From positions 1 to 33,385 of the forward strand of contig WTCE01000125.1 in assembly GCA_013138735.1 (NCBI GenBank): 33,385 nucleotides of DNA, in the 5' to 3' direction. The position numbers were made by a program, and so were the translations under genes. Shown piece by piece: positions 15,943-28,540 of the stretch. Under the pieces are notes generated by a model that ran no database searches, was not told where the DNA came from, and worked only from the letters and a program-made list of their open reading frames with translations. The stretch's first letter is position 1, and each line of letters starts with the position of its first letter. The stretch is from Crocinitomix sp. (GTDB taxonomy: Bacteria; Bacteroidota; Bacteroidia; Flavobacteriales_D; Crocinitomicaceae).

Positions 15943-16212
15943 ATGAAGAACCTCTTCAAAGCGCTAAACGATCAAACGCGGCGTGAAATATTAGATTTAT
16001 TAAAGGAAAAGGAGATGACTGCAGGAGAAATTGCGGAAAAATTCAACATTTCCAAGCCTAGTATTTCGCATCACCTTGATTTATTAAAACGTGCCGATTT
16101 GGTTTCAAGCGTTAAAAAAGGACAATTCGTCACCTACTCTATCAACACCACAGTTTTAGAAGATTTGGTTTCATGGGTAATGACTTTAAAACAAGATAAA
16201 GATGAAGACTAG
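15943..16212 (+). CDS. sdpR: ArsR-family autorepressor, SdpR type
   Basis: An 89-aa winged-helix regulator. FKALNDQTRREILDLLKE is the standard ArsR opening, and the recognition helix is in AGEIAEKFNISKPSISHHLDLL. The wing segment VSSVKKGQFVTYSINT follows. No metal-binding Cys motif (CVC-type) is present, so it is unlikely to be a metal sensor. It overlaps the SdpI-like gene by 11 nt. In Bacillus subtilis SdpR represses its own operon and is sequestered at the membrane by toxin-bound SdpI. The pairing here implies an equivalent circuit, though the signal in this organism is unknown. A perfect dyad sits immediately upstream. Confidence 0.88.
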   Translation: MKNLFKALNDQTRREILDLLKEKEMTAGEIAEKFNISKPSISHHLDLLKRADLVSSVKKGQFVTYSINTTVLEDLVSWVMTLKQDKDED

Positions 16213-16858
16213 TTTGAAAAGTGAAATAATGTGTATTGGCTTAGTGCTTTTGCCTTTTATTTATTTAGCTATTGTTTGGACAGGACTACCTGACGTTGTT
16301 CCTATTCACTGGAATGCTTCTGGAGAGGTTGACGGTTGGGGTACAAAAACAGTATTGATTCTGATCCCATTTATCCTTCCCTTTTTAGTCTACCTTCTTT
16401 TTCTCTTATTGCAAAGATTTGGTCCTGCTGAAAAATTAAATAAAATGGGCAAAAAATTTGCTGCATTGAAGTTTATTCTCACACTTGCCATGTCTCTTTT
16501 AGCTGTATTTATAATTTATTCTGCCAATCATGGAGAAGTTGCTCGGCCAACGTTTATCTTCGTTTTGCTAGGATTATTATTTGCCGCATTGGGTAACTTT
16601 TCCAAAACCATTCAACCCAATTACTTTTTAGGAATTAGAACTCCATGGACCCTAAAACATCCTTCTGTCTGGAAATCGACGCATGAATTAGGTGGTAAAA
16701 TGTGGTTTATTGGTGGATTAATTATCGCGCTTACAGCATTAATCTCCACTTCATTGATTGCCATTATTTGCATGATTTCAATTTTAGTTATCATAACTAT
16801 TGTACCTGTTGTTCATTCATATTTAGCTGCTAAAAAATTAAAAACATCTCAATCATAA
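16202..16858 (+). CDS. sdpI: SdpI/DUF1648-family membrane immunity-sensor protein
   Basis: A 218-aa inner-membrane protein with about six transmembrane helices. The N-terminal DUF1648 part contains LPDVVPIHWNASGEVDGWGTK, the signature of the family. The C-terminal SdpI domain has FLGIRTPWTLKHPSVWKSTH, followed by paired helices. In B. subtilis the homologue confers immunity to the SDP toxin and captures the repressor SdpR. Here it overlaps its regulator by 11 nt and is followed after 9 nt by a secreted hydrolase. No SDP-like toxin gene is in the window, so the sensed agent may come from other cells, or the system may serve as a general membrane-stress switch. Confidence 0.9.
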   Translation: MKTSLKSEIMCIGLVLLPFIYLAIVWTGLPDVVPIHWNASGEVDGWGTKTVLILIPFILPFLVYLLFLLLQRFGPAEKLNKMGKKFAALKFILTLAMSLLAVFIIYSANHGEVARPTFIFVLLGLLFAALGNFSKTIQPNYFLGIRTPWTLKHPSVWKSTHELGGKMWFIGGLIIALTALISTSLIAIICMISILVIITIVPVVHSYLAAKKLKTSQS

Positions 16859-20252: not shown

Positions 20253-20356
20253 AAAAAAAACACGATCAAGACATATACAAAAAGATACATAGAATTTTCT
20301 CAGTAGCTACGGGAATAGATAAGGGAAGCCGAAAACCTTTAATAGAGTAGGCAAGT

Positions 20357-20378: not shown

Positions 20379-20591
20379 ATGAAAAAGTTGAATTTAAAAA
20401 AACAAGAAGTTACGGCATTATCTTCTGACGAGATGAGCAATGTAAAAGGAGGACGTGGAGGATGGTCTAATTTTAGAACTGGAAGCTGCGGATATTCATC
20501 AGATAATCCAGTTGAGGAATGTGTGCTTACGCAAGACCAAGCTGGAGATTGGCACGAAAATTCAGTAACTGTTGGATGTGTAAAGAGTTAA
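20379..20591 (+). CDS. Class I lanthipeptide precursor 1
   Basis: A 70-aa RiPP precursor. Leader residues 1-25 read KKLNLKKQEVTALSSDEM, then NVKGG. The LxLKK block is the type recognised by LanB in Bacteroidota class I lanthipeptides, and Gly24-Gly25 is a double-glycine cleavage site. The 45-aa core has three Cys (37, 48, 67) and nine Ser/Thr (30, 34, 36, 40, 41, 51, 62, 64, 70) as substrates for dehydration and (methyl)lanthionine rings. It shares GWSNFRTG and VTVGCV with precursor 2. An ATG 10 nt upstream opens a different short frame and is not used. It precedes precursor 2 by 16 nt. Ring pattern and bioactivity cannot be read from sequence. Confidence 0.92.
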   Translation: MKKLNLKKQEVTALSSDEMSNVKGGRGGWSNFRTGSCGYSSDNPVEECVLTQDQAGDWHENSVTVGCVKS

Positions 20592-20607
20592 ACTTAAAAT
20601 TTAAAAA

Positions 20608-20814
20608 ATGAAATTACAATTAAAAAAACAAGAAATAGCGGCGTTATCGTCAGATGAGATGAAAAATGTCCAAGGAGGAGGAGTTGGATGGTCTAATTTC
20701 AGAACAGGTAATTGCAGTTATTCTGATAAAATGCCGGATAATTATCTTTCATGCGACGAATTCAATGAAGACGGCACACGTACCACCGTTACCGTTGGTT
20801 GTGTAAGCAAATAG
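20608..20814 (+). CDS. Class I lanthipeptide precursor 2
   Basis: A 68-aa paralogue of the preceding gene. The leader, residues 1-24, contains LQLKKQEIAALSSDEM and ends NVQGG. The 44-aa core has Cys at 36, 49 and 65 and ten Ser/Thr. Conserved with precursor 1 are GWSNFRTG before the first Cys, a Tyr-Ser pair after it, and TVTVGCV near the end. The middle differs in sequence and length: 10 versus 12 residues between the first two Cys, and 18 versus 15 between the last two. The two peptides could be a two-component lanthipeptide or simply variants. A strong hairpin follows the gene and separates it from the enzymes. Confidence 0.92.
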   Translation: MKLQLKKQEIAALSSDEMKNVQGGGVGWSNFRTGNCSYSDKMPDNYLSCDEFNEDGTRTTVTVGCVSK

Positions 20815-20828
20815 AAGTATCAATTCGG

Positions 20829-20875
20829 AACCCACGGTTTACCTCATTCGAATAAAACCGTGGGTTATTTTTATC
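20829..20875 (+). terminator. Terminator/attenuator between precursors and enzymes
   Basis: A perfect 12-bp stem, AACCCACGGTTT (20829-20840) with AAACCGTGGGTT (20855-20866), has a 14-nt loop and is followed by ATTTTTAT, an interrupted T-run. Partial read-through would give many precursor transcripts and few enzyme transcripts. The lanC ATG is 21 nt beyond the stem. Confidence 0.85.
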
Positions 20876-20887
20876 CAAATATTCATT

Positions 20888-22030
20888 ATGAATTATAAGC
20901 AGAAAATCGAATCCCATATTAATATTATTAAGGATAAATTGTTTCATCAAGAATACAATACAAAGGTGTCAAACTCGTCAGTTTTAAGTGGTCGTTTGAG
21001 TAGACTTATTTTCTTGTCGTCGTTAGACGCTTATTATTCAAATGAGGAGCATAAGGATTATATTAATAATGCAATTAAAAAGGAAATCGAATTTATCAAT
21101 GACAACGCAATTTCTCAATTCAGCATTGACGGGCTTGCGGGTTTCGTTCATGGTGTAATCTTATTGTCCAATCGCACTGAAATTAAAAATATCGACCAAG
21201 ACTTTTTTAAAGAAATAGACGAACACTTAATAACACTATCAAAATTCTACCTTGACCGTAATAATATCGATCCGTTTCATGGGTTTATTGGTATTGGGCA
21301 TATTATCCTATTAAGGATTAAGAAAGACCCTCATTTGCTTGAATCGACTGAACCACTTGTAGCGCAATTATTATCAATTGTAAATGATATTATCGATAAC
21401 GAAAAAAAAGATGAAATTGATTTTAGCCTTGCACATGGGTTGAGTGCCGTTTTAAGATTTATAACTGAATATGGTATTTCGAGTTCACAGATTGAAAAAT
21501 ACAAAGACTTTATTTCAAAGCTATGTTTTTTCATACTTTCCCATAAAAAACAGAATAGAATGCCGGATCGAATCAATACTGAAGAAGGGGAACCCACTTT
21601 TGCCCCGCTAAGATGGTGTCATGGTGATCTTGGAATTTGTTATGCACTTGGAAAAGCTGCGAAGGCCATAGATGATGATGAAATTTATACTCAAACTGCT
21701 TTGGTATTAGATGTTATCACTGTATTTCGCGAACCAGAGGATCAAGAATTATATTCAGCTACAATTTGTCATGGAACATTAGGTGTGGCTCATGTTTTTT
21801 CTAAAATTTGCACTATTTATAATTCTTCTAACGTTTTGACTGCAACAAATTATTGGTATGCAGAATCCCTAAAATTGTTAAATTCGGACGTAGCATACAA
21901 TTATGTCGATAACGACAAGAATAAAGCTGAACTTACTGGAACTTTGAATGGCATTGAAGGTGTTGGATTGGGATTATTAGCCCATATCAATGATGGAGAT
22001 GAATGTTTGGACTCAATTTTGCAACTTTAA
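20888..22030 (+). CDS. lanC: Lanthionine synthetase C-family cyclase
   Basis: A 380-aa zinc enzyme that adds Cys thiols to dehydrated Ser/Thr in the precursor cores, forming (methyl)lanthionine rings in the cytoplasm. The three expected Zn ligands are visible: Cys244 in RWCHGDLGICYALG, and Cys294-His295 in ATICHGTLGVAHVF. These are equivalent to the Cys and Cys-His pair of NisC. The repeated alpha-toroid motifs are present (GLAGFVHG, PFHGFIGIGH, SLAHGLSAVL, GLNGIEGVG-like TLNGIEGVGLGLL). The length is close to typical LanC (about 400). It begins 21 nt after the attenuator stem and ends 20 nt before the S9 fusion gene. Confidence 0.95.
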   Translation: MNYKQKIESHINIIKDKLFHQEYNTKVSNSSVLSGRLSRLIFLSSLDAYYSNEEHKDYINNAIKKEIEFINDNAISQFSIDGLAGFVHGVILLSNRTEIKNIDQDFFKEIDEHLITLSKFYLDRNNIDPFHGFIGIGHIILLRIKKDPHLLESTEPLVAQLLSIVNDIIDNEKKDEIDFSLAHGLSAVLRFITEYGISSSQIEKYKDFISKLCFFILSHKKQNRMPDRINTEEGEPTFAPLRWCHGDLGICYALGKAAKAIDDDEIYTQTALVLDVITVFREPEDQELYSATICHGTLGVAHVFSKICTIYNSSNVLTATNYWYAESLKLLNSDVAYNYVDNDKNKAELTGTLNGIEGVGLGLLAHINDGDECLDSILQL

Positions 22031-22050
22031 TCAAAAATAAATTATAATCA

Positions 22051-25000
22051 ATGACTAGAATTTTTGCATTAGTTGTATTTACATGCATATTTCACGGAGT
22101 TTTTGCTCAAGTGTTTCAAGGTCGCATATTGTCTTCTGAGGGTGAGGCTCTTCCTTTTGCTAAAGTTGAATTAAAAAAATTTAAGATTCAAACAAGAACG
22201 GATTATGACGGTGCTTTTAGAATTTCCCTTAAAAACCAAAAAATCCCGTTCACTGACACTATAATTGTGACTTATATTGGTTATGAAACGTACCGTAAGG
22301 CAGTTAAATTTAAGGGAGAAAATACGGAGATAGAAATTAGCTTGAAAGAAGATAGTAAAATGCTAAATTCAGTAACGATTAGAACGCTTAAAGATTATCC
22401 CGCCGAAGAAGTTGTGAGATTTGCCCTAAAAAACGTAAAAGATAATTACCCAAAAAATACAACTAACTGTCAGGGATTTTATCGAGAACAAATTGAGGAA
22501 GAAAATGATTGGGTTATTTTGAATGAAGCCGCCCTAGAATTGAATTATGGAAAATACCCACAAAAAGGTTATCAAAAAAAAGCCTTTAAAGCTTATCGCA
22601 ATTTAGATGAATTACCATGGAACATAAGTAAACATTCTGTTTTCAGGCACTTAATTTATTTCCCAAGTTACATTTCGGTTAAAAACGATCAGGTCAAGCT
22701 ATTGAGTGCAAGAAGTTCGTCAGACTTTGGCAAATACAACGTATTCTCAAGTCCAATTGGTGGCCCTTTAGATTTATTGGCCTTGGATAAAATAAAATAT
22801 CAGAGCGATTTCCTTGACCCAAAACTATTGAAAAAATACACCTACAAAAATGAGAAACAAGAGCGATTTAATAACGAACTTTGTTATGTTATCCGCTTTT
22901 ATCCGAATGAAGAATACCAAGAACCAATATTCCATGCGTTAAGTGAAAAAATGCAAAGCCCAATTTATGTGGGTAAAATGTATATCGCTGGAAAAGATTT
23001 TGCGGTAATCCACATTGAATACGAATTTGCTGATAATATTGACCTTACTAAGTATACTTTTTTTAATGGGAAGATTGGTTTACCAGAAAACGTATACGTT
23101 AAAATTGATTATCAAAAATATGAAGATGGGTGGATTTTAAAATCCGTTGAGGCGCAACAAAAGAGGCATTACAAAATAGACTTTGCACATAATGCGTTTA
23201 TTGATTATGAATGTGTGAGATCACTCAACTTGAATGAATTTAAAGAAAGTAAAACCGATTTTGACGAGGATAGTTTAATCTTTTTAACCAAATCTTTTCA
23301 TATAAACGATTACGCGAGTAGTTATGATAACGAATTTTGGAAAGAATATAAAAATAATAAAACGTATGTCCCGCTTGATATTGATGTTCGTAAACAGCTT
23401 GAAAGTAGGCTTTCCTTAGATCAACAATTCAATAATATCAATCTTCCACTTGATTCTTTAAAAGTTCCATTACCAAAAAAAATTAAAACATCCTCATTCA
23501 ATTTCGCAGATACGCTTGTTGATTTTTATCAGTGGATGGAAGATTCAAATGACTCCAATTTGATTCACTATTTGCTCAATGAAAACCTGTACTTTGAATC
23601 CGTACTGAATAAACTAAAAACACGCAATGTTCGACTTTTTCAACGTAAGTTAAATAGTCTATTTAACTACGATTCCGTTGATGTTGGAGGTCAAAAAAGT
23701 GAAGCTGACCCTTTCCAAGTCGATAACGGTTATTCTTATCGCGTTATTAAAAATGGCAACGGTTTACATTTAATAACAAAGGTGAATGAGCAACATACCG
23801 ATACATTAATGAATATTTCCAATTTTGTTCAAGGAAAAATCAACTTTAACTTGGAGCAAATATCCTTTGGAAATAACGGAGATGTTGCCCTATCGTATTC
23901 TGAAAAGGGAGGTTACTCAGCATCATTATTAATACAGAAGCAAAAAAGTAACCCGTACCTCATTGATTCTATTGCTGATTTTGTATGGGTAAATGATTCA
24001 AGCCTTTTGTACACCAAAAAGAACGAGAAATTACGCGGTTATCAAGTGCGATTATTTAATATCAACAACGCAAAAGACTCATTGATAATAGAGGAACGAA
24101 ACGAGGAATACATGGTAAGTTTATACCCTTCCGTTTCACGTGACTTAATATGGATAGAATCTCGAAGTTTGAATGCGAATTATTTTTATTCATGCCATAC
24201 CAACACGGCAGATTTAACGTTGAACCAAATAAACTCCCCTGAAGACAATAACTTTGTTACAGTTGAACATTATCAAGGCAAAAACACATATGTAAGTACG
24301 AATTTTCCCAATGGGAAAAATGAACTTGCAATTATTGATTTGGAAAGTGAATTTGAACCCTATAAATCAAGAAAAGTCGTCTATACTACAGATAAATTAA
24401 TTAATGAATTTTTGGTTACAGAAAACCACATTGCATTAACAGAATATGCGTTAAATAAATTCTCCTTAACGACCTTGACGAAGGATGATTATAGTATCAA
24501 TCATCTTAGTTTTGACGAAGAAATAAAAGCACTTTATTTGGAGGATGAAAATAACAATGATGAAAATATTGGCGTGATTCTTAGTTCGCCCAAAACTCCT
24601 TACAGGGAATACGACATTAATTTAGAAAAAAAAGAAAAAAAATCAATTTCTCAAGTTGGACTTAATGAGGAGATGGAGATTCAAATTGAAAATAGATTCA
24701 TTCCCTCGAATGACAGTATTGAGGTTCCTTTAATGGTTATTTCAAACAAGGCATTTCATAAAGACAGTATTAAAGGGGTTATTTTAAAAGCCTATGGTGC
24801 CTACGGTTATCCTGAATTTCCCAATTTTACTGATGAAGATATTGTTTTTGCAAATTTAGGTTTTGTGGTGGCATACACTTATGTACGCGGTGGTGGCGAA
24901 CTTGGGCAAACATGGCATAATTCGGGAAAAGGCTTACAAAAGAAGAATACGTTTGAAGATTATGTTCTATGCGCGAATTACCTTAAATCGTTTTACCAAA

Positions 25001-25479
25001 TTGACTCAAAACAAATGGTGGGTTACGGATCAAGTGCGGGCGGTTTAATAATGGGCTATGTCGCCAATAACCATCCTGAATTGTTTGGGACGCTAATTTT
25101 TGATCGTCCGTTTTTAGATGTGGTCAATATTATGAGTGATAGTTCTGACATTTTAACTGCACTTGAATATAGTGAATGGGGCAATCCGCTGGTCAAAGTA
25201 GATTATGAGTATATCAAAACATATTCTCCTTATCAAAACATTCGCCCACAAGCCTACCCAAACATGCTTTTTCTAGGAGGGTATTATGATCGTCAAGCTC
25301 CTTATTGGCAAATTGCAAAAAGTGTAGCACAATACAGGGATAATAATATTTCAAATTCTCTCATTTTAATGAAAATGAATTTACAAGCTGGACACAAAGG
25401 TTTGGCGTCTGGCTCTGACTCAAATACTAATCTAAGTGCAATAGCTTCACTTGTTTTCTACACATTGAATGGCGAATAA
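22051..25479 (+). CDS. Secreted fusion: CarboxypepD_reg/DUF5686-like region plus oligopeptidase B-type S9 protease
   Basis: A 1142-aa exported protein. The signal peptide is about 1-19 (GVFAQ, no lipobox). A carboxypeptidase-regulatory-like domain covers about 20-108 (FQGRILSSEGEALPFAKVEL). About 110-430 resembles the following part of Bacteroidota DUF5686-type proteins (NCQGFYREQIEEENDWVILNEA is wording of that family, recalled). From about 485 the S9A N-terminal signature FYQWMEDSND opens a beta-propeller. The catalytic domain has Ser995 in GSSAGG, Asp1080 in GYYDRQAP and His1115 in AGHKG. RGGGELGQTWHNSGK and EWGNP are oligopeptidase B-like. It overlaps lanB by 11 nt. Likely role: leader removal or product processing outside the cytoplasm; S9 peptidases such as FlaP do this for class III lanthipeptides. 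Confidence 0.88.
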   Translation: MTRIFALVVFTCIFHGVFAQVFQGRILSSEGEALPFAKVELKKFKIQTRTDYDGAFRISLKNQKIPFTDTIIVTYIGYETYRKAVKFKGENTEIEISLKEDSKMLNSVTIRTLKDYPAEEVVRFALKNVKDNYPKNTTNCQGFYREQIEEENDWVILNEAALELNYGKYPQKGYQKKAFKAYRNLDELPWNISKHSVFRHLIYFPSYISVKNDQVKLLSARSSSDFGKYNVFSSPIGGPLDLLALDKIKYQSDFLDPKLLKKYTYKNEKQERFNNELCYVIRFYPNEEYQEPIFHALSEKMQSPIYVGKMYIAGKDFAVIHIEYEFADNIDLTKYTFFNGKIGLPENVYVKIDYQKYEDGWILKSVEAQQKRHYKIDFAHNAFIDYECVRSLNLNEFKESKTDFDEDSLIFLTKSFHINDYASSYDNEFWKEYKNNKTYVPLDIDVRKQLESRLSLDQQFNNINLPLDSLKVPLPKKIKTSSFNFADTLVDFYQWMEDSNDSNLIHYLLNENLYFESVLNKLKTRNVRLFQRKLNSLFNYDSVDVGGQKSEADPFQVDNGYSYRVIKNGNGLHLITKVNEQHTDTLMNISNFVQGKINFNLEQISFGNNGDVALSYSEKGGYSASLLIQKQKSNPYLIDSIADFVWVNDSSLLYTKKNEKLRGYQVRLFNINNAKDSLIIEERNEEYMVSLYPSVSRDLIWIESRSLNANYFYSCHTNTADLTLNQINSPEDNNFVTVEHYQGKNTYVSTNFPNGKNELAIIDLESEFEPYKSRKVVYTTDKLINEFLVTENHIALTEYALNKFSLTTLTKDDYSINHLSFDEEIKALYLEDENNNDENIGVILSSPKTPYREYDINLEKKEKKSISQVGLNEEMEIQIENRFIPSNDSIEVPLMVISNKAFHKDSIKGVILKAYGAYGYPEFPNFTDEDIVFANLGFVVAYTYVRGGGELGQTWHNSGKGLQKKNTFEDYVLCANYLKSFYQIDSKQMVGYGSSAGGLIMGYVANNHPELFGTLIFDRPFLDVVNIMSDSSDILTALEYSEWGNPLVKVDYEYIKTYSPYQNIRPQAYPNMLFLGGYYDRQAPYWQIAKSVAQYRDNNISNSLILMKMNLQAGHKGLASGSDSNTNLSAIASLVFYTLNGE

Positions 25480-28400
25480 TATTGAAGTATTCTCGGAGGG
25501 GGTATTGAGGACTCCTATGTATCCTTTCCAATTGATTAAAAATATCAATAAAGATGCGATATTTAAATTAGCTTCCGATCAACAATTTCAAGAAGCAATA
25601 GCCTTATCCAGTTATGACTTTTATTCACAATTGAAAGAATGGTTAGAAAGCGACGCATCAGACCCTAAAAAGAAAGAAAAGATATATGCTACACTTTATA
25701 AGTATATCGCGCGGGCTTCGGCTAGAAGCACTCCTTTTGGTTTGTTTGGGACATTAGCATATCTATCTACTCGTAACACCTTCGAATCAGTCTCCGTTGA
25801 ATTGGATGATGAAATTAAACGAGATGTTCAAGTTGATGGAAGGCTATTAAAAAAAATAGTTGAGTTAGTAGAGCAATTTTCTTCACGTAATAATACACGC
25901 TATTATTTGAACAATACTATTTATTCAAATGACGGATTATATAGTTATTACGAACAAAAGTTGAGCGGGAACGAGATTTTCTATACATTATCTCGCTTTG
26001 AAAAAGACGAGGTTGTAACCAAAATACTGGATGCCTTTTCTCCTCATGGAAAAATTACAGCTATTTTAACACTAGGACTCGGGGATACCTATTCGGATCA
26101 AGACCTATTATCTTTTGTAGATGATTTGATTGCTGAAAAAATCTTAATTAGTGAATTCGATTTATTCTTTATTGATTCAAAGAACCTTTCTGAAGTCATT
26201 CAAAAAATTCAACAACTTGTTAGCGCTGATGCAGACGAAAGTGAAAATGAGTTAATTAAAGCTTTTGAAGAGATAACAAAAATCTTATTGTCAAATGGCT
26301 TGACTTTTAAAACCATAGAGTCGATTTCCCAAATATTGACTTCACAAAATATAAAACATGATAAAAAAGACTTAATTCACCTTGATGCTAGAAGAGACTG
26401 TAATAAGTCACTTCAAATTGCGGATGAGTTAAAAAGTGAGTTATTAGAAGCAAGGGAATTATTACTAAAAATTCATCCACCAATACCCGATTCTTTTGAA
26501 GGATTTAAGACCAAATTTTTTCAAAGGTACGAATATCGAACTATGAATTTAATTGAGGTATTAGATGCCGAAAACGGTATTGGCTTTCCGTATGAAGCCG
26601 ATCATATCGAAAATGATTCCATTCTCAAAACTATTCAGTTTCCGCATTCAAAATCCGCTAGCACCAATCATAAATTGACTGGCGGAGAAGTGTTTTTGTT
26701 AAATAAAATAATCGCATCTAAAACGAATCATTCAAGGAAAATTGATCTCTCGCTAGATGATGTAAGCCATTTAACCCCAATGAAAGGAAGTAATTCGTTC
26801 AACGCCTTTTTTACACTATTGGATGACGAAATTTGGCTAAATAGTTTTACGGGAAACTCAGCAACACAATTAATTTCCAGATTTGCCCATTTGGATGAAC
26901 GAATAGATCAATTATGCGCTGATATAGTTGAAAAGGAGTCCGAAAATGAGCCTGATAAAATTTTAGCTGAAATTACTCACATTCCAGAACTTAAATCGGC
27001 AAACCTAATACCGTTTAAAAATTATAGGGCAGTAGAAATTCCGTGTCTTTTTAAATCTAAAAACAAAACGATAGAAGAGTTACCAATATCGGATATATAT
27101 GTTCGGTTATTGCAGAATAGAAAAGTGGAGTTAATCTCAAAAAAATATCAAAAAGTAATTATTCCAAAATTGTCTAACGCTTTAAATTATAGTCGCAATT
27201 CCATTCCCCTCTATAAATTTTTATGCGCTTTAGAGTCCCAAGATGAATCTAGCTATCAAGCTTTTACTTGGAATCAGTTATTGCCATTATTCGATTTTTT
27301 TCCGCGTGTTGTTTTAAAAAAAATCGTTTTATCGCCAGCACTTTGGAAAGTAGCATTTTCTGAATTGTCCGGAATTGAATTGAATAGTACCAACATAAAA
27401 TCATGGCGAATTAGACGCAAAATAGATGAACAAGTCTATTTGTCAACCAATACGATAAATGATAATAAACTCTATATTGACTTTGGTAATGAAATAGCCG
27501 TCAATGTCTTTTTAAAAGAACTTAAAAAACATAAAACCCTTATTCTTTTTGAATCCTTAGCTGAGTTTAACTCCAAGCAAATTACAAATAAAGAAAACGA
27601 TTTTTTCTTGAATGAAATAGTCTTGCCTTGCTATCAAAAAACAAATAAAACAACGCAAAAAATTAACAAAGATCGGCTATTCTCACCAGATACTGAGCAT
27701 GTTTTCATTCCTGGTTCGGAATGGCTTAGTTTGAAGATATACTTAGACTATAAACCAGCGAATGATTTATTATCGACGGAGTTATTTAAAACCATAGGAG
27801 AATTGGTAGGAAATAAAATAATTCAAAAATGGTTCTTTGTTCGCTATTATGACGACGATTTCCATATTAGGTTAAGGTTTCAGTCTGACGATCAAAAGAA
27901 CTTGGCATTAATCTATTCGATCTTGTACCCCATTTTCAACGAACAAAAAAAAAGAGGACTCATCCACAACATTGTAATAGACTCCTATAAAAGAGAAAAT
28001 GAGCGATATAAGGCGAAGTTTATTCAATCAGTAGAAGAAATCTTTTTCAATGATAGTCATGCCGTTTGCCAATTTCATAATCTACCGAATCACCAATCTG
28101 AAATTTGGATTTTTGCACTTTTGAGTATTGATTATTTGCTCGAAGACTTCGGACTAAATTTTCTTCAAAAAAGAGATTTATTAGCCGATATGTTCAATGG
28201 TTTTTTTAAAGAATTTCATGGAAACAAGCCCCTTCTAAAATCAATTGATAAAAATTACCGAGAACGCAAAAAAGTCTTATTTACGTGCCTAAACAGTGCA
28301 TCCCATAATGATTTCCCTTATATCGAAATAGTGTCAATCCGATCTGCCAAAAACAAATCAATTATTGAAAAAATGCTTGAGGACGGCTGGGAAACGGATG

Positions 28401-28540
28401 AATCAGAAATTCTACCGAGTATAATACACATGAATATGAATCGTCTTTTTGTTTCTAATAACCGAAAAAATGAAATGGTTATTTATTACTTTTTATTCCA
28501 GTATTATAAATCGAAATGTGCTATTATGGCTAAGGGGTGA
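25469..28540 (+). CDS. lanB: Class I lanthipeptide dehydratase, full-length LanB
   Basis: A 1023-aa cytoplasmic enzyme that uses glutamyl-tRNA-Glu to glutamylate core Ser/Thr, then eliminates glutamate to give dehydroalanine/dehydrobutyrine. The N-terminal glutamylation part has RTPMYPFQLI, ASARSTPFGLFGT, FFQRYEYRTMNLIEVLD and NGIGFPYEAD. The C-terminal elimination (SpaB_C/thiopeptide-type) domain starts near Trp752 in SEWLSLKIYLDYK and includes WFFVRYYDDDFHIRLRF. The length matches NisB-like enzymes (about 1000). Some Bacteroidota loci, such as that for pinensins as I recall, split LanB in two; here it is one chain. The ATG lies inside the end of the S9 gene (11-nt overlap), so translation is coupled. 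Confidence 0.95.
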   Translation: MANNIEVFSEGVLRTPMYPFQLIKNINKDAIFKLASDQQFQEAIALSSYDFYSQLKEWLESDASDPKKKEKIYATLYKYIARASARSTPFGLFGTLAYLSTRNTFESVSVELDDEIKRDVQVDGRLLKKIVELVEQFSSRNNTRYYLNNTIYSNDGLYSYYEQKLSGNEIFYTLSRFEKDEVVTKILDAFSPHGKITAILTLGLGDTYSDQDLLSFVDDLIAEKILISEFDLFFIDSKNLSEVIQKIQQLVSADADESENELIKAFEEITKILLSNGLTFKTIESISQILTSQNIKHDKKDLIHLDARRDCNKSLQIADELKSELLEARELLLKIHPPIPDSFEGFKTKFFQRYEYRTMNLIEVLDAENGIGFPYEADHIENDSILKTIQFPHSKSASTNHKLTGGEVFLLNKIIASKTNHSRKIDLSLDDVSHLTPMKGSNSFNAFFTLLDDEIWLNSFTGNSATQLISRFAHLDERIDQLCADIVEKESENEPDKILAEITHIPELKSANLIPFKNYRAVEIPCLFKSKNKTIEELPISDIYVRLLQNRKVELISKKYQKVIIPKLSNALNYSRNSIPLYKFLCALESQDESSYQAFTWNQLLPLFDFFPRVVLKKIVLSPALWKVAFSELSGIELNSTNIKSWRIRRKIDEQVYLSTNTINDNKLYIDFGNEIAVNVFLKELKKHKTLILFESLAEFNSKQITNKENDFFLNEIVLPCYQKTNKTTQKINKDRLFSPDTEHVFIPGSEWLSLKIYLDYKPANDLLSTELFKTIGELVGNKIIQKWFFVRYYDDDFHIRLRFQSDDQKNLALIYSILYPIFNEQKKRGLIHNIVIDSYKRENERYKAKFIQSVEEIFFNDSHAVCQFHNLPNHQSEIWIFALLSIDYLLEDFGLNFLQKRDLLADMFNGFFKEFHGNKPLLKSIDKNYRERKKVLFTCLNSASHNDFPYIEIVSIRSAKNKSIIEKMLEDGWETDESEILPSIIHMNMNRLFVSNNRKNEMVIYYFLFQYYKSKCAIMAKG

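Follow-up and report, generated by a model that had tools for sequence, protein, structure and literature searches.

A predicted class I lanthipeptide operon in Crocinitomix sp. carrying an exported S9 protease fusion between lanC and lanB

Class I lanthipeptides of the Bacteroidota are numerous in genome sequences, and few of them are in hand (PMC7268733); work on lanthipeptides is often held back because protease genes are missing (PMC8960859). The clusters of this group described in PMC7268733 share LanB, LanC and leaders with an LxLxKx5L motif ending in GG, frequently together with C39 proteases, and the pinensin cluster is a further Bacteroidota class I example treated there. For class II peptides, a two-step removal, by a transporter and then by a serine protease, is established (PMC10885120); PMC9127955 cites Caetano 2020 as having predicted a second cut in class I clusters of Bacteroidetes as well. 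S9 family proteases, LanPB and NorP, occur in class III lanthipeptide clusters (PMC7268733, PMC10206099). An improvement in the production of class I lanthipeptides is reported in PMC9993889, and LahT150, a C39 domain that cuts at GG, was applied to a Pedobacter class I peptide (PMC12328550). Here we describe a contig of Crocinitomix sp. (WTCE01000125.1; 33,385 nucleotides, referred to below as the window) carrying a five-gene operon in which the gene of an exported S9 peptidase fusion (the S9 fusion) lies between lanC and lanB. The S9 fusion is real; it is not conserved beside lanB or lanC in the genomes sampled, and it is best read, from sequence comparisons, as a lineage-specific recruitment of an exported protease. 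The genes of the operon are as follows.

20379–20591, + strand: precursor 1, 70 aa, with a leader ending in VKGG and a 45-residue core containing 3 Cys
20608–20814, + strand: precursor 2, 68 aa, with a leader ending in VQGG and a 44-residue core containing 3 Cys; aligns with precursor 1
20888–22030, + strand: LanC cyclase, 380 aa, PF05147 at 113.7 bits, with C244, C294 and H295
22051–25479, + strand: S9 fusion, 1142 aa, with Pfam, NCBIfam and PDB matches and the triad S995/D1080/H1115
25469–28540, + strand: full-length LanB, 1023 aa, with glutamylation and elimination domains (PF04738 and PF14028; NisB alignment)

All five genes lie on one strand, separated by 16, 73, 20 and -11 nt, the last value being the overlap of 11 nt between the S9 gene and lanB. 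The original prediction, made from the letters of the window, had listed two GG-leader precursors, a LanC with three zinc ligands, a 1142-aa S9 fusion and a full-length LanB on a single strand with short gaps or overlaps, and this gene set and layout are borne out, with exact coordinates. The GC content of the genes ranges from 0.33 to 0.39, close to the 0.35 of the window, and there is thus no sign of foreign origin. A scan for sigma-70 promoters yielded no signal, with 45 found compared to 39.4 (sd 7.7) in shuffled sequences.

The locus has in common with the Bacteroidota class I clusters of PMC7268733 the LanB, the LanC, the leader motif and the GG end. It differs in that no C39 gene, often present in those clusters, was found in the window with profiles, and in the position of the S9 fusion between lanC and lanB. 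The pinensin LanB is split (PMC7268733), whereas a single protein of 1023 aa is encoded here, a point in which the locus departs from the pinensin type.

Precursor 1 scored over the cut-offs of the class I lanthipeptide models NF038158 and NF038153, and precursor 2 over that of NF038153 only. Precursor 1 also passed TIGR04149, which is named for radical SAM (rSAM)-modified peptides, so that a leader of this type is not confined to lanthipeptides and it is LanB and LanC that decide the assignment. Near their start both cores carry GWSNFRTGxCxYS, and their end has VTVGCV in common, with a middle part that differs, and the TxxC spacings (TGSC or TGNC, and TVGC) fit ring closure by LanC; the combination of Cys and Ser/Thr in a core behind a recognised leader is that of class I precursors. 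LanC exceeded the Pfam cut-off for LANC_like and holds C244, C294 and H295, a Cys-Cys-His zinc site, as well as H183, residues to which we assign the roles that they have in NisC. LanB exceeded the cut-offs for Lant_dehydr_N (320.6 bits) and Lant_dehydr_C (198.8 bits), can be aligned with NisB over its residues 34–1015, and keeps the NisB positions R83, R87, E823 and R826 and the His of a C-terminal SIIH motif, which we take to be the catalytic positions. Domains, catalytic residues and leaders thus support biosynthesis of a class I lanthipeptide by LanB and LanC, as had been predicted, and, judged by its sequence, the locus is very probably a real class I lanthipeptide operon of known kind.

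The S9 fusion begins with a signal peptide (identified by eye), followed by a CarboxypepD_reg-like module (residues 23–110), a stretch of about 370 residues (about 111–480) that received no Pfam assignment even at E up to 1, and an oligopeptidase-B-type S9 unit (481–1129). Scores above Pfam cut-offs were obtained for Peptidase_S9 (154.1 bits), Peptidase_S9_N (66.2 bits) and CarbopepD_reg_2 (53.1 bits), while CarboxypepD_reg (PF13620) stayed below its cut-off. A single-sequence structure prediction of residues 21–475 was discarded, its mean predicted local distance difference test score (pLDDT) being 29.6. The triad S995, D1080 and H1115 is intact and aligns with that of solved oligopeptidase B, which also provided the best PDB matches (1.7e-65) and the best NCBIfam match; propeller, S9 domain, triad and best match together place the unit with oligopeptidase B (S9A). 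It scored 252.7 bits against the oligopeptidase B equivalog model NF007511, for which the cut-off is 1313, and it is accordingly a relative of oligopeptidase B rather than an equivalog. The acidic stretch EYxEWGNP, which presumably has a role in specificity for a basic P1 residue, is kept. LanPB and NorP of class III are likewise S9 family proteases in lanthipeptide clusters, whereas here the enzyme is of the oligopeptidase-B type and is fused to an N-terminal module.

S9A peptidases are themselves common: the whole fusion, searched in 200 genomes of the family, gave an S9 match in 147, and the Crocinitomix genome has, besides the fusion, two or more S9A genes of ordinary size (3 of 24 candidates scored). 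The whole-fusion search of its contigs gave 3 S9 relatives, none of which matched the N-terminal module. This module was found in 3 of 395 genomes of the phylum, namely the genome of the window and two others with short matches within about the first 170 residues, and in 41 of 399 genomes of the order, where most matches were short. Eight relatives in six other genomes cover the module; seven are full-length fusions and one (G798) runs off its contig. One of the six genomes, G645, has a LanB and LanC locus with a C39 transporter on a contig other than that of its fusion relative. These genome searches scored at most 2 to 4 candidates per genome, so that further copies may be missed.

The known second cut in class II and the second cut predicted for class I clusters of Bacteroidetes lead us to place the S9 fusion as a second-step trimmer. 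LanB would dehydrate Ser/Thr in both GG-leader precursors and LanC would close thioether rings on the three Cys of each core. Since both leaders end in GG, C39 transporters are indicated for leader removal, and a C39 peptidase transporter encoded elsewhere would cut at GG during export. The S9 fusion, which would have been recruited into the operon from a fusion family otherwise standing away from lanB and lanC, would then act outside the cytoplasm and cut a second time, most likely after Arg8 past the GG (RGGWSNFR/TG and GVGWSNFR/TG, the slash marking the cut). This Arg is the only interior Lys or Arg lying at equal distance from the GG in both cores; Lys44 also coincides, but it is the last residue of precursor 2. 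The second cut is likened to those made after the transporter by CylA and LicP, the proposed likeness being an extracytoplasmic serine-protease cut that follows a GG-type cut (PMC10885120). CylA and LicP act in class II and remove six residues (PMC10885120), whereas here the peptide is of class I and the removal of eight is proposed. Four C39 matches were found elsewhere in the genome, one of them lying in a frame of 749 aa, within 1 kb of a further GG peptide. CylA and LicP are subtilisin-type S8 proteases, and the enzyme here is of family S9. The complete scheme, from class I operon through C39 leader cut to trimming by the S9 fusion, is offered tentatively, the chances being somewhat against it, and the trimming role in itself is possible though a little more doubtful still.

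Conservation was examined on 50 stretches carrying LanB. LanB was searched in 240 genomes of the family, 395 of the phylum (E<=1e-40) and 349 of the order, again with at most 2 to 4 candidates scored per genome; 47 of the stretches comprise all family and phylum matches listed outside the Crocinitomix genome, with split halves counted once, and the others are one from this genome (L041) and two new ones from the order search. Three of them (L086, L088 and L102) contain no more than fragments, and those of L086 and L102 may be the two parts of a single gene. LanC, S9 and C39 were scored on all of them with profiles built in this analysis, and LanC was found somewhere on 23 of the 50.

Several results weigh against trimming by the S9 fusion. 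None of the 23 LanC-bearing stretches has an S9 gene within 3 kb of lanB, the one further S9 match on a LanC stretch being weak, on the opposite strand and 6.1 kb from lanB. Neither lanB nor lanC occurs on the fetched stretches (L038–L040 and L149–L153) of any of the eight other fusion relatives, with flanks of 2.7–9.7 kb except on one side of L150 (0.6 kb) and of L151 (absent). No S9 gene adjoins a second locus of the same genome, on contig C137, where lanA, lanC and lanB stand in matching order. To this is added the lack of a C39 gene in the window. The two precursors are paralogous, so that the shared Arg may reflect duplication, and oligopeptidase B usually takes peptides of less than about 30 residues, whereas the cores have 44 and 45. 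Moreover, the second cuts of characterised lanthipeptides almost all remove six residues rather than eight (PMC10885120).

At the C137 locus, both LanB and LanC share 27% identity with their counterparts in the window, and the genome has in total two matches to LanC and two to the LanB C-domain. The precursor of this sister locus (L041, 12777–12992, - strand) shows a near-exact internal repeat in its core, DSQMTVMDTLTCHC / DSQMTVMDTYTCHC.

The fusion had originally been regarded as the dedicated processing protease of the operon. The linkage to lanB and lanC that marks a dedicated LanP protease is not conserved on these 23 stretches or among these eight relatives, an outcome that the original prediction had itself named as refuting, and that part of the claim is not supported by the comparison; a trimming role acquired later is a separate matter, and the close spacing and overlap of the genes, together with an Arg at a matching place in both cores, leave room for one gained within the lineage. 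The order lanC, CarboxypepD_reg-S9 fusion, lanB, whose search in other Bacteroidota had been suggested, was met nowhere else in our sample; it was found in a single genome, and a three-enzyme architecture is thus not a demonstrated type. None of the literature titles and abstract openings retrieved names this gene order.

A rival reading is that the S9 fusion has no part in maturation, an exported peptidase gene having landed between lanC and lanB where it is merely co-transcribed. In favour of this are the eight relatives without lanB or lanC, the sister locus without an adjoining S9 gene, and the absence of the fusion-bearing genomes G067 and G008 from the group of 7 family genomes, out of 240, that gave a LanB match (E<=1e-20). 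The junctions of 20 and -11 nt, with an intact frame and triad, favour selected co-expression instead, and we consider this reading rather unlikely.

Removal of the whole leader in one step by the S9 fusion, as the original prediction had it, could draw on the Lys directly before GG in precursor 1 (VKGG), on further Lys in both leaders, and on the precedent of prolyl-oligopeptidase-type or S9 proteases in class III clusters (PMC7268733, PMC10206099). Yet precursor 2 has Gln in place of this Lys, each leader ends in the C39 site GG, and a C39-type match lies somewhere on 11 of the 23 other LanC-bearing stretches; furthermore, an exported enzyme would require the leader to be carried out of the cytoplasm on the uncut peptide. 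We regard this one-step removal as improbable. Alternatively, the enzyme could serve in immunity or scavenging by degrading own or foreign peptides outside the cytoplasm, as befits an oligopeptidase-type protein with a signal peptide (by eye) in an operon where none of the five genes matches an immunity family in Pfam and NCBIfam scans. However, lanthionine rings resist such enzymes, and we know of no S9A lanthipeptide immunity factor, the literature not having been searched for one; this function appears unlikely.

Returning to the trimming role, a second and different association of S9 genes with lanB favours it, by suggesting that recruitment of S9 to LanB loci recurs. S9 genes occur within 3 kb of lanB on 7 of the 50 LanB stretches, all among the 16 loci with a split LanB and without LanC. 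Each of the following is an S9A gene with a signal peptide (by eye).

L098, 11493–13670: tightly linked
L099, 6196–8400: tightly linked
L110, 11232–13400: tightly linked
L115, 10829–13012: tightly linked
L108, 13913–16087
L116, 13650–15857
L124, 6465–8648

In the four tightly linked cases the S9 gene lies 1–19 nt from lanB on the matching strand; in L108 and L116 the distance is about 2 kb, and in L124 the gene sits between pieces of lanB that are on different strands. All seven proteins read as exported or as lipoproteins by eye and none has the fusion module. The best PDB matches of the two compared were prolyl endopeptidases or oligopeptidases, and for the four scanned against NCBIfam the best model was oligopeptidase B, far below its cut-off. 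In a tree of 43 S9A sequences, rooted at the midpoint, the seven fall on one side of a branch with support 98/98, next to two S9A genes (hk_G286_2 and hk_G514_3) from the same genomes, on whose short stretches no LanB was found. A branch with support 100/100 parts them from the S9 fusion of the window, whose sister is the G067 fusion (100/100). A common origin of the window's S9 with those next to split LanB was rejected on account of these separate clades. Several fusion sequences form long branches (fus_G008b and fus_G663a were flagged), and no fewer than two changes on the tree are required to account for the fusion architecture, so that the fusions are not one clean clade. As the seven belong to a different clade, on the prolyl-oligopeptidase side, S9 genes joined LanB loci at least twice. 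The two groups are alike in their signal peptides (by eye) and in an S9A gene next to lanB, and they differ in that the window has both the fusion module and a LanC. Small GG-type open reading frames (ORFs) found by pattern contain no Cys in L098, L108 and L116 and one in L099 and L115; L110 and L124 gave no match to the pattern.

The precursor genes of the window are accompanied by two putative regulatory elements, neither of which the original prediction lists.

20320–20353, + strand: DUF805b cis-regulatory RNA element (RF02914), an H-type pseudoknot (Rfam)
20829–20874, + strand: terminator-like attenuator hairpin, then ATTTTTAT (from a fold of 20820–20880)

The DUF805b element scored 42.6 bits, over the Rfam gathering threshold of 35.6 (E 2.8e-9), and its end is 25 nt upstream of the precursor 1 start codon. 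Folding without pseudoknots gave no stable structure at this position (z 0.98). At least 19 matches at E<=0.001, seven over gathering, were found in the same genome (150 of 3724 candidates scored). Of these 19 copies (L195–L213), seven precede small GG-leader peptides and most others precede longer ORFs, several of them exported by eye; no ORF of 30 aa lies near L201, and L206 did not fit the ORF pattern but is followed by a long ORF. An alignment of 12 copies, made up of 10 of the 19 (the other 9 were left out) and one each from L092 and L098, has two crossing helices, named from these same sequences, with 94.9% of cells paired, 23 cells with two-sided changes, and such changes in 6 of 7 pairs, consistent with conserved helices. 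None of 500 shuffles reached the paired percentage, the number of two-sided cells or the covariation score, while 4 of 500 reached the number of two-sided pairs and 73 of 500 the number of pair types; slid controls paired in at most 50.7%.

Scanning the window and the 50 LanB stretches by pattern gave 18 matches, compared to a mean of 9.0 in block shuffles. Eight have an ORF downstream (two in L083 and one each in L085, L092, L095, L098, L114 and the window), and all eight precede GG-type leader peptides, the leader in L092 ending in AG; the other 10 lack an ORF, this step having been applied to real sequences only. Over the Rfam gathering threshold, the element stands before a precursor on 2 of the 23 LanC stretches (L085 and L092) and occurs on 1 of 5 LanC-less stretches scanned (L098). 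At L190 (contig C66, 73900–74650), where there is no LanB, three similar GG-leader peptides stand in a row, each with an upstream DUF805b element, two over gathering and one just under. A literature search for the term DUF805b found no paper.

The second element is a 12-bp hairpin (20829–20866) between precursor 2 and lanC, directly followed by the T-rich tail ATTTTTAT. Its fold of -19.2 kcal/mol (z -4.16) was reached in none of 200 shuffles. It was not listed by a terminator scan, probably because that scan allows loops of 3–8 only. The hairpin could let the precursors outnumber the enzymes. Elsewhere in the window, 3.5 kb upstream of the operon, positions 16202–16858 encode an SdpI-family membrane protein (PF13630 and DUF1648); the SdpI family includes immunity proteins.

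Taken together, it is conceivable, though rather doubtful, that exported S9A peptidases were recruited to mature LanB-made peptides in Bacteroidota on at least two occasions, as an oligopeptidase-B-type fusion beside LanC and as a clade on the prolyl-oligopeptidase side in operons with a split LanB and no LanC, the recognised precursors of which have 0–1 Cys, and that a pseudoknotted DUF805b leader RNA controls many GG-leader precursors, including those of lanthipeptides. Should the S9 fusion prove to trim the peptide, class I would gain a maturation protease of a new kind, one whose cut site can be predicted. For peptides that have dehydration enzymes but no cyclase, the S9 clade found next to LanC-less LanB provides a testable candidate protease, and the link to DUF805b would give a handle for finding precursors.

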